DNA of 28,706 nt. Source: a virus. The position numbers and the translations under genes are program-made. The notes beneath the pieces are model-generated. The model was not told where the DNA came from, did no database searches, and saw nothing but the letters and a program-made list of their open reading frames with translations. How positions within the stretch are numbered: the stretch's first letter is position 1; each line of letters starts with the position of its first letter. The DNA lies in the IMG/VR virus record IMGVR_UViG_3300042868_003420, positions 1 to 28,706 of that record; one strand, given 5' to 3'. This document shows, piece by piece, positions 14,261-25,394 of the stretch.

Positions 14261-15109
14261 TTATAATCCACAATATCCACTATCGCAATCAGTAAAATCA
14301 TTATCAAATAATTCTAATTGCGTTTTGTAGCTTTTTATTTTTTCGTAAGTAATTCCATTTTTAAATGTGCATTCGTTTTTTTGTTCCATTTTTATAAACC
14401 AATCAAATTGCTTTTCGGCTTTATTACTCATGTGCTTTAACATTAATTCGCTTCGGTGAAAACACCCGACACAATTATTTCGATATGCAAATCTAACGGG
14501 TTTATCTTTCCAGTAATTTTCTATTGTATCTTTAAATATAGCGTCATTTATTAAAGGAAAAGTAGTTTTTCGGTATGGTAATTCTTGCCATTTGTTGCGT
14601 CCGTTTTTTTCTCCAACCTTAAATTTAAAACTTTCTATTCCGTCAACGGCTCTTTCACTCATTGTTTTTGCTCTACTCATTTCGTTTGCTCTAAATCCTA
14701 TCCTCATTTCAATAGGTAGTTCCGTATTTTCGTAGCACCATTGAGCAATTGGTTTAACTTTCATATCAGTAGTGCAGTATCGTGTCATTTGATTAGGTAA
14801 ATAGTTTTTACCATTTGCCATTTTATAACTTCCGATAACGTCTTCAAACGTGTTTTTGCTTATCCAAACAATTTCTTTTCCTATAAATTGTTCTAAATCT
14901 AACATCGTGTAAATTATAGTATCATCTTCTAAAGTCCCGATAAAATCCGTTCCTATTCTATCGCTTACAATTTGTCTTATTTTGGCGTCAGGGAACAAGC
15001 AATTTGTGTCGTTTGTACGAACCAACGCAAAGACGTTGTAATCAGCTGGGTAATTAGCTGCAATATAACTTGACGTTTTACCACCGCTTAGTGAATTAAC
15101 TGTTTTCAT
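14261..15109 (-). CDS. PP-loop ATP pyrophosphatase (PAPS-reductase-like)
   Basis: A 282-residue protein of the PAPS reductase/adenine nucleotide alpha-hydrolase family. The PP-loop is SLSGGKTS (residues 6-13). Conserved cysteines include YCTTDMK (C112), CVGCFH (C213, C216) and a C-terminal CDSGYC pair, which could bind a metal or Fe-S cluster. The motif MRIGFRANEMSRA is also typical. Family members activate substrates by adenylation, including sulfate reduction, tRNA thiolation and DndC-type DNA phosphorothioation. The phage substrate is unknown, and no cysteine desulfurase is adjacent. It lies within the replication operon, 2 bases from the helicase gene, so a nucleic-acid modification role is favoured over sulfate assimilation. 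Confidence 0.85.
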   Translation of the reverse strand: MKTVNSLSGGKTSSYIAANYPADYNVFALVRTNDTNCLFPDAKIRQIVSDRIGTDFIGTLEDDTIIYTMLDLEQFIGKEIVWISKNTFEDVIGSYKMANGKNYLPNQMTRYCTTDMKVKPIAQWCYENTELPIEMRIGFRANEMSRAKTMSERAVDGIESFKFKVGEKNGRNKWQELPYRKTTFPLINDAIFKDTIENYWKDKPVRFAYRNNCVGCFHRSELMLKHMSNKAEKQFDWFIKMEQKNECTFKNGITYEKIKSYKTQLELFDNDFTDCDSGYCGL

Positions 15110-15111
15110 AA

Positions 15112-16071
15112 TTAAAAAGGTGTTTGTTGGTTCATTTTTTCTGAAAACGAAAGTAATTCTTTTCCGTTTACTATGTCAGGTTTCATTAAAGGTAGTTGTT
15201 TAACAGGAAAACTATTTGATATTGAGTTCGTGTTTCTAATTGGGTCAACTGAATTTATTTTAAATCCTAACCCACTATTGAACTCGCACAAAATTGGTTC
15301 ATCTAATCTGGTATGCATTCCGCCCGTGTCCATATCTTTAATCTTTTCTACATTTACCATAGTGTAATATTTCATCGTTTCGTGTTTTATTAACCTGTGA
15401 ATAACAAACATATCGTCACACCTATTTAAAAAAGCCTTACCGCCTTCAACGTGGTCTTTTAAAGGTGGTTTAAGGTGTCCTTTCCATTGGTGGTTATCAG
15501 GATATAAATTACCGCTCCTACCGCTTTCACTATTCGGGTGCGTGTTTATATAAATTGACATTCCTGATTCATTTACAAATTGCCGTGCTTGGTTTAAAAA
15601 TTGATAATTACCCTCGTAAGTCATTGATCGGTCAAGTCCTGTAAATGGGTCAATTAATCCAGCGTCGCATTCGCTTTCTTTAAACAGCTTTAAAATATCC
15701 GTAGGGGTGTAAAGTTTATTGTTTGGTATAAAATCAAAATACTGCTCAATAAAAGTGGCTGTGCTTAAAATCTTTGAATCTTCTATTTCAGAAAACTTTT
15801 GCCCTAAGTACATTTGTATCATATCACGCAAAATTTGCCCTTTTTGGTTTTCACCGCTCCAAATACAAAACCTTAGTTTATGTTTTACTGCAAGTGTTAA
15901 GAAATACCAATTTATCCAATAAGTTTTACCTACGTTATCGTGTCCGAGAATAATGTTTAGTTGTTTACGTTTAAATCTAAGGTGGTTATCCAAGTCGCAG
16001 TTTATGCCGTAACCCTTTTTAATTTTTCCGTGTTTATAATCAAGTAAATATTGCGCTGAATCTCCAATCAT
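15112..16071 (-). CDS. RecA-fold replicative helicase-type ATPase
   Basis: A 319-residue single-domain ATPase of the DnaB/RepA-like RecA fold. Walker A is GHDNVGKT (residues 43-50), the SGE motif of DnaB-type ATPases is at 72-74 (WSGENQKGQILRDM), and Walker B is DAGLIDP (136-142). THPNSE (about 177-182) and a DDMFVIHR strand follow. It lacks the DnaB N-terminal primase-interaction domain, so it is a short phage-type helicase that would depend on host primase or on the small DUF6291-like protein directly upstream (4-base overlap). It is the only clear replication enzyme in the window. No DNA polymerase or primase was found. Confidence 0.88.
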   Translation of the reverse strand: MIGDSAQYLLDYKHGKIKKGYGINCDLDNHLRFKRKQLNIILGHDNVGKTYWINWYFLTLAVKHKLRFCIWSGENQKGQILRDMIQMYLGQKFSEIEDSKILSTATFIEQYFDFIPNNKLYTPTDILKLFKESECDAGLIDPFTGLDRSMTYEGNYQFLNQARQFVNESGMSIYINTHPNSESGRSGNLYPDNHQWKGHLKPPLKDHVEGGKAFLNRCDDMFVIHRLIKHETMKYYTMVNVEKIKDMDTGGMHTRLDEPILCEFNSGLGFKINSVDPIRNTNSISNSFPVKQLPLMKPDIVNGKELLSFSEKMNQQTPF

Positions 16072-16685
16072 AATCCAAGTTGTTTGTTAACGTATTCTAC
16101 TAAGTGGTCGTTTTCGGTAATTTGATATTGTTTAGGATTTCTACTAAGCCAAGTTTTTAACCTTTGAGAAATACCAAAAGTTTTTTCCTTTTCAAATCTA
16201 AGTTTTTTATCCTGTTCTCCGTGTTCAGTCCAATAACCATAAAAATCATTTAATAACAATCTTCCGTATTCATTTAAAAAAGGTTGAAGCGCATTAGCAA
16301 ATTTTAATTTGCGTTCTTCTATGCTTTCTTTATTATTTACTTTATCATTTACATTATCATTATCATTTACATTATCAGCTATTTTTGCTATACTTAAAAT
16401 GCGTTTGCTATCTTTTGCTATCGGTTGCCATCTTTTGTTAGCACCTGCTTTACCCGCTTCACTTCGTTTTTCCTTAGTTTCAGTGTACTTTAATAAGTCA
16501 CGTTTCAACTGTTGCTGAATAGGTGTAAAAGCTAAATTAATTATTAAATCTTCGCTAATCGGATTCTCATCGTTAACGTAAGAAAAAATAAACTTAATTA
16601 ATTCACCTGCCTTTTCATTTGGCAATTGGTCAAACAACGCTTTTTGGTCAGCGTATAAAATAAATCCTTTTTTGTCTTTTGCCAT
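16068..16685 (-). CDS. DUF6291-like replication-module protein
   Basis: A 205-residue protein starting MAKDKKGFILYADQKALFDQLP. The N-terminal 70 residues (FILYADQKALFDQLPNEKAGELIKFIFSYVNDENP) match what I remember as DUF6291. The segment KEKRSEAGKAGANKRWQ is a basic linker, then an N/D-repeat region (DNVNDNDNVNDKVNN), and the C-terminal part resembles a replication-initiator or helicase-loader tail (FEKEKTFGISQRLKTWLSRNPKQY). The frame opens upstream at a TTG (16718), but this lies in the terminator hairpin, so the ATG at 16685 is preferred. It is followed immediately by the helicase gene, supporting a loader role (inference). Confidence 0.75.
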   Translation of the reverse strand: MAKDKKGFILYADQKALFDQLPNEKAGELIKFIFSYVNDENPISEDLIINLAFTPIQQQLKRDLLKYTETKEKRSEAGKAGANKRWQPIAKDSKRILSIAKIADNVNDNDNVNDKVNNKESIEERKLKFANALQPFLNEYGRLLLNDFYGYWTEHGEQDKKLRFEKEKTFGISQRLKTWLSRNPKQYQITENDHLVEYVNKQLGL

Positions 16686-16701: not shown

Positions 16702-16793
16702 TAAAAAAAGCCTCTCAAAATCCACAGGCTCTCACTTCTGTTTCATTTAAAAGGCTAATAACTTCTTTAAGTTCTATAATGTGAGAGCGAACC
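16702..16793 (-). ncRNA. Attenuator-like leader or small RNA before the replication operon
   Basis: The leader starts just downstream of promoter P5 and ends at a poly-T tract (plus-strand A-run 16703-16709). The terminator stem is 16709-16713 with 16726-16730 (AGCCT/AGGCT on RNA). A competing 8-bp perfect pair, 16728-16735 with 16781-16788 (GTGAGAGC/GCTCTCAC), shares three bases with the terminator arm, so the two folds exclude one another. A further small hairpin sits at 16760-16773, and a second AGCCT copy lies at 16752-16756. Either it is an attenuator controlling helicase expression or it is an independent RNA of about 90 nt. A four-codon frame (MKQK) is visible inside it. Confidence 0.6.
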
Positions 16794-16798
16794 GTTTA

Positions 16799-16831
16799 CA
16801 AATATACTAATTATTTTTTAATCACACTCAA
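16799..16831 (-). promoter_or_regulatory. Bacteroidota-type promoter P5
   Basis: On the minus strand: TTG (16829-16831), a 22-base spacer, and TATATTTG (16799-16806). It drives the attenuator-like leader and then the replication operon. The spacer holds TGATTAAAAAATAA, a weaker version of the element seen at P1-P3. Confidence 0.72.
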
Positions 16832-18109: not shown

Positions 18110-18334
18110 CTATTTTAATCTTTTGGAAATGTATCTTCCTAAAATTTTACCTACCAAACCGCAAAAAGGTTTATCCGTATCGACTTTCACCTCGATTTTG
18201 TCACCCGTTTTTGTAACCTCGATATCTAAATTCTTAGTATCTAATTTCACTTCGCTAATCGTTTCGTTTCTGTGAATTTCTAACGATGAATCATTCACTT
18301 GAATTTCAACATCAATCTTTTTTTTCTTTGCCAT
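18110..18334 (-). CDS. Small charged protein after the endolysin, unknown
   Basis: A 74-residue protein rich in K, E and D (MAKKKKIDVEIQVNDSSLEIHRNETISEVKLDTKNLDIEV...) with strictly alternating beta patterning, suggesting an all-beta fold. The C-terminus (CGLVGKILGRYISKRLK) is a basic amphipathic helix that could touch a membrane. One base separates it from the endolysin gene, so it may assist lysis (spanin-like function lacks any lipobox or membrane helix here), but there is no direct support. A UUCG terminator follows 43 bases downstream. Confidence 0.66.
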   Translation of the reverse strand: MAKKKKIDVEIQVNDSSLEIHRNETISEVKLDTKNLDIEVTKTGDKIEVKVDTDKPFCGLVGKILGRYISKRLK

Positions 18335-24117: not shown

Positions 24118-24141
24118 TATATTAAATATTATTTATATTTG
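24118..24141 (+). promoter_or_regulatory. Plus-strand promoter P6 before the chaperone cassette
   Basis: Plus-strand TATATTAAATATTATT (24118-24133) followed directly by TATATTTG (24134-24141), then 16 bases to the ATG at 24158. The TATATTAAA element matches the first nine bases of the element at P1-P3, although the spacing is shorter. No TTG is found at −33. It shows that the inverted cassette can carry its own transcription signal. Confidence 0.62.
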
Positions 24142-24157
24142 TTCAAAAATTATAAAC

Positions 24158-24700
24158 ATGATTGAAGTTTTAGGTAGGCAAATTGCCAACAAAATGAATG
24201 AAATTAACATCGAAGAATTCGAAAAGATTTCAGCTATCCATAACAATCCCGAATTGGATAACATCGAAAAACAAATCAAAGTTTTTGAAGTTGTCGGAAT
24301 CGAAGAAGATGAGTGGGAAGATTTTAAATACTTTGTTGAAAAGACAAAAGAATTTAATACCGATAATTACGAAAATAAAGAACCCGTTACAAGTTTAGAA
24401 ATTGACGGATTTACTTATAATGCCGAAATGCGTTTATCTGTAAAAGATACGAAGCTAATTGAAAAGATAATTACCAAAGAAAACAAACATTCAGTTTCTG
24501 ATATCATGGCTTTGTTGTTTAAAAGAAGCGACCTTTCAAATACGGAACACTACGACAACGCGCACCTAAAACACAAATCAAAGTTGTTTAGATTACAAGC
24601 CGCTGAAATTGCAATCCCTTATTTAAACTTTGTAACTCAAACAATATCCAGCCATGCTCAAAAACAAGCTTCCGAAAGCGTGGAATCAAATAACGATTGA
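24158..24700 (+). CDS. Tail assembly chaperone-like protein, G-type (plus strand)
   Basis: A 180-residue protein, MIEVLGRQIANKMNEINIEEFEKI..., acidic and helical, with EKQIKVFEVVGIEEDEWEDFKYFVEK and KEPVTSLEIDGFTYNAEMRLSVKDTKLIEKI. Size, acidity and the position before a 246-residue overlapping frame are those of the G component of tail chaperone pairs (lambda gpG-like). Such proteins coat the tape measure during tail assembly. The pair is on the strand opposite to every other gene in the window, apparently with its own promoter. Similarity is by general character only. Confidence 0.66.
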   Translation: MIEVLGRQIANKMNEINIEEFEKISAIHNNPELDNIEKQIKVFEVVGIEEDEWEDFKYFVEKTKEFNTDNYENKEPVTSLEIDGFTYNAEMRLSVKDTKLIEKIITKENKHSVSDIMALLFKRSDLSNTEHYDNAHLKHKSKLFRLQAAEIAIPYLNFVTQTISSHAQKQASESVESNND

Positions 24701-25394
24701 ATCCTTTATAGAACTTAGAACCCTATCCGATGAAGATGGGGTTTTTAATTATCAGATTGATGTACTTTGTACGTTGTTAGATTGCTATCCTGAAGATATT
24801 GAAGAACTTGCCATCGAAGAACTTGAAGACTTATTAATGGAGGTTAAATTTATACGTGGCGAACCGCATAAAAACTACAAAAAAGAAATCGGAGTTTATA
24901 AACTAAAACCATTTAACAAAATTACACTCGGTGAGTTTATAAGTTTAGAATCTTATTTCTCGGATAACTACATCGAAAAGTTGCTTAACATCGTTGCAAT
25001 TCTTTACAGGCGGGTTCGTGTTAATGAATGGGGCGATAACGTCTTAGAAAGCTATAATTATCATTCTAATGACCGTTTAGATTGGTTTTTGGATTTTCCG
25101 ATTACTGATGTTTACGGGTTACTACCTGAATATATTAAATTTCGTGAGGATATTATCGACCAATATAAAAACCTAATGTCGGAATCCTATGAAGATGACT
25201 TCGAAACCGATTTAACCTTAGACGCTGAGGAACAAAAGGAATTTGAAGAAGAAAAGAAACAGAAAAAATGGGCGTGGGAACAACTTATTTGGTCACTATG
25301 CAACGAGGATTTAACTAAGTTTCATGCCGTTTGTGAACTACCATTAATTTTGGTCTTTAACTTTTTAGGAATGAAAAAAGAATTAAGCGTTTAG
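24654..25394 (+). CDS. Tail assembly chaperone-like second component (T-type)
   Basis: A 246-residue protein starting (M)LKNKLPKAWNQITIESFIELRTL, a pattern (PK.WN.ITxxxFIEL) I recall in Bacteroidota tail-chaperone second genes. It continues with PFNKITLGEFISLESYF and ends KKWAWEQLIWSLCNEDLTKF...LPLILVFNFLGMKKELSV. It overlaps the first gene by 47 bases in another phase. Classic chaperone pairs are joined by programmed frameshifting. Here the −1 frame meets a stop at 24691, so only a +1 or −2 shift, or an independent start, would give this product. Its stop TAG overlaps the TAA of the converging gene, sharing TTAG at 25391-25394. Confidence 0.7.
   Translation: MLKNKLPKAWNQITIESFIELRTLSDEDGVFNYQIDVLCTLLDCYPEDIEELAIEELEDLLMEVKFIRGEPHKNYKKEIGVYKLKPFNKITLGEFISLESYFSDNYIEKLLNIVAILYRRVRVNEWGDNVLESYNYHSNDRLDWFLDFPITDVYGLLPEYIKFREDIIDQYKNLMSESYEDDFETDLTLDAEEQKEFEEEKKQKKWAWEQLIWSLCNEDLTKFHAVCELPLILVFNFLGMKKELSV

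Follow-up and report, generated by a model that had tools for sequence, protein, structure and literature searches.

A structured leader RNA in viruses of Bacteroidota bacteria, probably a genetic control switch of an undescribed class

What kind of RNA is encoded between a phage promoter and the first gene of a replication operon? The question was raised by the minus strand of IMG/VR virus record IMGVR_UViG_3300042868_003420, of which a stretch of 28,706 nt (here called the window) was analysed. Read along this strand, the promoter element TATATTTG (16806-16799) is followed by TAAACGGTTCGCTCTCACATTATAGAACTTAAAGAAGTTATTAGCCTTTTAAATGAAACAGAAGTGAGAGCCTGTGGATTTTGAGAGGCTTTTTTT, 17 nt and the ATG (16685) of a gene for a DUF6291 protein. 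An initial annotation had proposed a regulatory RNA or attenuator of ~90 nt here, in which an 8-bp pairing and a terminator hairpin were thought to exclude each other by competing for three bases. Much of its description was borne out: the promoter lies just ahead, GCTCTCAC (16788-16781) and GTGAGAGC (16735-16728) are perfect complements, seven T are found on the minus strand at 16709-16703, the start codon follows the terminator at the distance given, and the gene after DUF6291 encodes a DnaB/primase-helicase relative. The DUF6291 protein also matched phrog_6451 ("primosomal protein," E 2.5e-8). A phosphoadenosine phosphosulfate reductase-like gene (phrog_424) is located in the same operon (window 14261-15109, minus strand).

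The leader RNA, ~90 to 92 nt in length, almost certainly comprises a 5' hairpin (P1), a terminator hairpin (P3 and P4) with a U-run, and a helix (P2) between the loops of P1 and P4, as predicted from the comparisons described below. Transcription is expected to start at ~16795-16793, at the foot of P1. In the 5'-to-3' direction, the features are as follows.

16799 to 16806, minus strand: Bacteroidota -7 promoter element TATATTTG (TAnnTTTG), from the sequence
16789 to 16793, minus strand: P1 5' strand GGTTC, pairing with 16774-16770; compensatory changes in 5 of 5 pairs, 100% of cells paired
16781 to 16788, minus strand: P2 5' strand GCTCTCAC in the P1 loop (kissing strand), pairing with 16735-16728
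16770 to 16774, minus strand: P1 3' strand GAACT, from covariation and the minimum-energy fold
16757 to 16769, minus strand: A-rich linker TAAAGAAGTTATT from P1 to P3, conserved and unpaired in the model, from the alignment consensus
16746 to 16756, minus strand: P3 5' strand AGCCTTTTAAA (terminator stem); compensatory changes in 10 of 11 pairs
16742 to 16745, minus strand: internal loop, 5' side, TGAA, facing GGAT; AGTA/GAA in other leaders
16738 to 16741, minus strand: P4 5' strand ACAG; compensatory changes in 4 of 4 pairs
16728 to 16735, minus strand: P2 3' strand GTGAGAGC in the P4 loop, from covariation
16724 to 16727, minus strand: P4 3' strand CTGT, from covariation
16720 to 16723, minus strand: internal loop, 3' side, GGAT, from the alignment of related leaders
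16709 to 16719, minus strand: P3 3' strand TTTGAGAGGCT, from covariation
16703 to 16709, minus strand: terminator U-run of seven, the first U paired in P3, from the sequence; a U-run also follows P3 in related leaders
16068 to 16685, minus strand: gene for the DUF6291 protein, 205 aa, primosomal-protein-like (Pfam DUF6291, E 4e-23)
15112 to 16071, minus strand: gene for a DNA primase/helicase (DnaB-like ATPase) relative (phrog_18375, E 5e-21; phrog_19 DnaB-like, E 7e-9)

Relatives were collected by searching with the DUF6291 protein, not with the RNA, which yielded 80 viral loci; an exact 18-mer search added 10 loci. The same arrangement, with differing helix sequences, was present before most start codons of DUF6291 relatives. 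In a first alignment of 28 RNAs, both sides had changed in 24 of 27 pairs. Realignment of 44 hits (42 distinct homologues) revealed compensatory double changes in 25 of 27 pairs, distributed over all four helices. In this realignment 96.6% of cells were paired, falling to 30 to 49% once partners were slid, and the covariation score was 0.682, compared to 0.203 for shuffled and at most 0.116 for slid partners. Since the realignment profile encoded P1, P3, and P4 and omitted P2, support for P2 is independent of the profile. P2 alone had 93.2% of cells paired (75.6% shuffled), a covariation score of 0.468 (0.169 shuffled), and compensatory changes in 6 of the 7 counted pairs. A structure-blind G-statistic scan of all column pairs placed predicted pairs at ranks 1 to 14, three of them in P2, and no conserved alternative (antiterminator) helix was among its top pairs. 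The covariation across related phages for which the initial annotation had called is thus strong.

These comparisons changed the proposed architecture. The terminator stem originally drawn, AGCCT (16730-16726) with AGGCT, was rejected by covariation (65% of cells paired versus 63% shuffled); the conserved stem is formed by AGCCTTTTAAA (16756-16746) with TTTGAGAGGCT (16719-16709). The second AGCCT is indeed present at 16756-16752; rather than offering a further alternative, it is part of conserved terminator stem P3. Because this stem carries the P2 3' strand in its loop, competition for the three bases vanishes: instead of excluding each other, all four helices, P1 to P4, are present together in a kissing-loop fold, with no conserved alternative helix. 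What stands of the earlier proposal is a promoter-proximal RNA with a terminator before the replication operon; the competing-hairpin switch does not, and attenuation itself is predicted.

The minimum-energy fold of the window RNA was exactly P1, P3, and P4 (-19.3 kcal/mol) and left both complementary loops free; the P2 duplex by itself was computed at about -9.6 kcal/mol. The single-sequence folding z-score of the region was -0.87, which is uninformative alone; it is the comparative evidence that reveals a structured RNA. The internal loop TGAA/GGAT may represent a tandem G-A motif and the AGTA/GAA type a loop-E-like motif; this motif is swapped between leader types. In related leaders, a G+C-rich stem foot is followed by a run of mostly 5 to 8 U.

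A descriptor combining the promoter, P1, P2, P3, and U-run scored 34 in the window; the best score in first-order random sequence (0.8 Mb) was 29, and a similar descriptor reached at most 28 in 1.68 Mb. The profile score of the window was 105.5 bits, a value that is partly by construction, as the window was among the 28 building sequences. Judged from the sequence comparisons, the element is real and functional.

Applied to 83 DUF6291 loci, the descriptor detected 59 copies in 53 loci, representing 38 distinct leaders with 27 different P2 strands. The 53 loci are a lower bound, since some loci without a hit are short contigs and others have diverged leaders, which were found by profile or by eye. 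All 59 copies were on the coding strand, 5 to 46 nt before an ATG, and none was on the opposite strand. The TAnnTTTG element ahead of the distinct leaders was exact in 28 of 38 and had one or two changes in the remaining 10. Metagenomic phages carry the leader, as do phage isolates of Flavobacterium, Cellulophaga, and Olleya. Among named phages, it was located at the head of the replication operon in Flavobacterium phage 11b and filifjonk9-1 (one copy per whole genome), Cellulophaga phages phi13:2 and phi19:3 (the latter read by eye), Olleya phage Harreka_1, elemoA_1-9A, and stinky9-1. In mumin6-1 it heads a helicase/VapE operon that has no annotated DUF6291 gene. A blastn search of the region against named phages gave no match, because the helices change sequence.

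Phages carry one or two leader copies. Second copies precede a gene for a ParB-like protein with a DUF4326 domain in four loci (L005, L033, L035, and L092), and in L062 a thymidylate synthase gene is headed by the leader. In L005 (725-1720), the ParB-like protein has its DUF4326 domain at the C terminus and heads an operon with its own leader copy. P2 strands are complementary to each other within each single leader, and P2 sequences are unrelated among the leaders of one genome (stinky9-1, mumin6-1, L003, L005, and L092).

Bacterial genomes were also searched, and the results do not favor an element of host genes. Profile R1 hit a single genome among 397 of one family, and that genome was again its only hit among 395 of the class; a second profile (R2, described below) matched none of 397 genomes under strict filters, which make this a weak negative. 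At this sensitivity, bacterial genomes rarely contain the element. A single copy in a bacterial assembly (genome G107, locus L129, 312-409) precedes a gene for a predicted replication-type protein; its contig is numbered C164 and is therefore probably a phage or prophage fragment.

Within the window, four other minus-strand promoters (17883, 13430, 12617, and 10605) have short unstructured leaders with no fold, so that the structured leader is special to the DUF6291/helicase operon. These TAnnTTTG promoters share an upstream block resembling ATTAAAAAGAATA and a short AAACAATTAAA-type leader before the ATG, and are probably ordinary early promoters of the phage. Elsewhere in the window, TATATTTG occurs right after the stop of gene 18110-18334, with a TTCG hairpin and T-run within ~40 nt (18109-18044, minus strand); this site either simply terminates the operon or yields a further, very short transcript. 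Two ORFs on the plus strand (24134-25394) have their own TATATTTG promoter inside an otherwise minus-strand block of structural genes.

Two further second copies were found upstream of NUMOD4-HNH homing-endonuclease genes, and a search with the NUMOD4-HNH protein located the leader before at least eight distinct genes of this type; it was also found in Flavobacterium columnare phage FCV-1. The homing-endonuclease leaders have a TGTAG/CTACA P1, a 7-bp P2, a 3-bp P4, and an ATG 9 to 12 nt after the stem. In eight aligned examples every P2 cell was paired (100%), and 5 of the 7 P2 pairs had compensatory changes. Profile R2, built from homing-endonuclease leaders only, matched the replication-operon leaders of Harreka_1 (E 5e-6) and 11b (E 3e-4) as well as the ParB-type leader in L092 (E 1e-4) and FCV-1 (E 2.6e-7). 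Since R2 matches both, homing-endonuclease and replication-operon leaders constitute one class.

The NUMOD4-HNH gene of stinky9-1 lies between two shared genes and is absent from filifjonk9-1. Similarity between the two phages stops ~35 nt upstream of the leader promoter, and for this reason the homing-endonuclease gene appears to take its promoter and leader along when it moves; on the opposite side, the neighboring gene differs too. In a comparison of close Flavobacterium phages (L136, 13400-13430, versus L201, 1561-2175), one has and the other lacks a NUMOD4-HNH gene and leader between shared genes; the adjoining single-strand binding protein gene diverges too, as after homing with co-conversion. 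Because homing-endonuclease genes carry their own copy, the leader behaves as a portable cis element.

How might such a leader act? We favor, with a probability of roughly 0.55, a cis-acting 5' leader that serves as a promoter-proximal transcription attenuator, its terminator gated by the kissing fold. RNA polymerase would start at the foot of hairpin P1, and the emerging P4 loop would then pair with the P1 loop to form P2, a kissing helix of 7 to 8 bp. The P3/P4 hairpin would close as the polymerase arrives at the U-run, and the choice between stopping and reading through into the DUF6291 and helicase genes would be set by the forming or holding of the kissing fold, not by competing hairpins. 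Expression from the leader promoter would need read-through, because the terminator sits between the only promoter and the gene, ~20 nt away. We infer that the terminator works, that P2 alters its efficiency, and that read-through sets the gene dose. A classical antiterminator is unlikely because no competing helix is conserved, and differing P2 sequences within one genome make it unlikely that the loops share an antisense regulator. Movement of the leader along with homing endonucleases suggests that it operates through the host machinery or a very common factor.

Attenuation has competitors, the strongest of which, although unlikely, is a free-standing small RNA gene. A start at the P1 foot and an end at the terminator would delimit a complete unit for a trans-acting RNA of ~92 nt, a protein could bind to the conserved A-rich linker, which is unpaired, and to the internal-loop motifs, and the downstream gene would be fed by leak-through. 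Such a gene would not be expected always 5 to 46 nt ahead of a same-strand ATG and upstream of unrelated genes, nor with a separate copy for each homing-endonuclease gene, and loops that differ even within one genome leave no common pairing target. Somewhat less likely still is a 5' mRNA element for protection or positioning, giving a stable 5' end or control of translation, with the U-run a mere hairpin end and termination minor. A hairpin at the extreme 5' end, together with a compact kissing fold, is what protective leaders typically show, and in homing-endonuclease leaders the ATG is close enough to the stem to be within reach of the ribosome footprint; however, the U-run after a G+C-rich stem foot would be superfluous for protection, and ATG spacing is variable, up to 46 to 47 nt. 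An RNA-only antiterminator like HK022 put (~70 to 90 nt), whose nascent fold binds RNA polymerase (in put, the beta' zinc-binding domain) and lets the enzyme pass terminators, the RNA's own among them, is very improbable: put is likewise promoter-proximal and compact, with two hairpins and one or two copies per phage, and a leader with no obvious trans factor that works with genes moving between phages would suit it, but the leader contains its own terminator and kissing loops, whereas an intrinsic terminator hairpin is not part of the put fold (PMC9378689), and there is no sequence or Rfam relation.

Other candidates found no support. For a possible leader peptide (ATGAAACAGAAGTGA, or the frame IIELKEVISLL...), reading of the aligned relatives by eye showed a frame interrupted by stops and indels and, in the loop-E type, loss of the ATG, and no conserved reading frame was seen; the ATGA conserved in leaders is the internal loop. 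For an antisense RNA, no TAnnTTTG promoter was seen by eye opposite the leader, and the window contains no second copy of the loop 8-mers. A type III toxin-antitoxin system (toxI-toxN) was discarded, the leader being a single copy without tandem repeats and the genes concerned being DUF6291, NUMOD4-HNH, thymidylate synthase, and DUF4326.

Like known attenuators and transcriptional riboswitches, the putative attenuator combines a promoter, a structured leader with an intrinsic terminator, and a gene start soon after. Its predicted terminator lies between the promoter and the first gene within the conserved structure, as P3 covaries and is followed by the U-run. Most known attenuators have an antiterminator helix; here no mutually exclusive one was found, P2 being compatible with P3, and the kissing helix would anchor the terminator loop to a hairpin upstream. 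Neither a ligand nor a leader peptide was found for the leader. The repC/repR leaders of pT181/pIP501 and the pseudoknot leaders of IncI repZ control replication through antisense RNA. They resemble the phage leader as structured leader RNAs of a replication gene with loop-loop contacts and differ in that the loops of each phage leader are complementary to each other. The ColE1 RNAI/RNAII kissing complex contains a 7-nt loop-loop helix, and homing-endonuclease leaders similarly have 8-nt loops with 7 nt paired; the phage leader instead unites both hairpins in a single molecule, and one of them is a terminator.

Searches against Rfam 15 (including Flavo-1, 6S-Flavo, and HEARO) gave no match in the window at gathering score, and relaxed searches (E up to 5 or 1) of 24 loci gave nothing credible, the hits being below gathering score and to unrelated families. 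Bacteroidetes structured-RNA motifs are listed in two large surveys (PMC2864571 and PMC8040213); none of the PMC2864571 motifs present in Rfam matches the leader. No description of it was found in the open-access literature, whose coverage is incomplete and excludes preprints. The leader probably represents a class of genetic control switch that had not been described before, occurring in viruses of Bacteroidota bacteria. More tentatively, at slightly below even odds, we propose a new RNA class of these viruses in which kissing between a 5' hairpin and a terminator loop would set read-through into the replication operon, and which homing endonucleases would carry as an expression module.

If confirmed, this would be a widespread undescribed phage RNA class in which a terminator loop is held by another hairpin, and a compact model for tertiary RNA contacts that gate intrinsic termination. 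It would also show that homing endonucleases bring their own expression control and would provide a first handle on the timing of replication genes in Bacteroidota phages.
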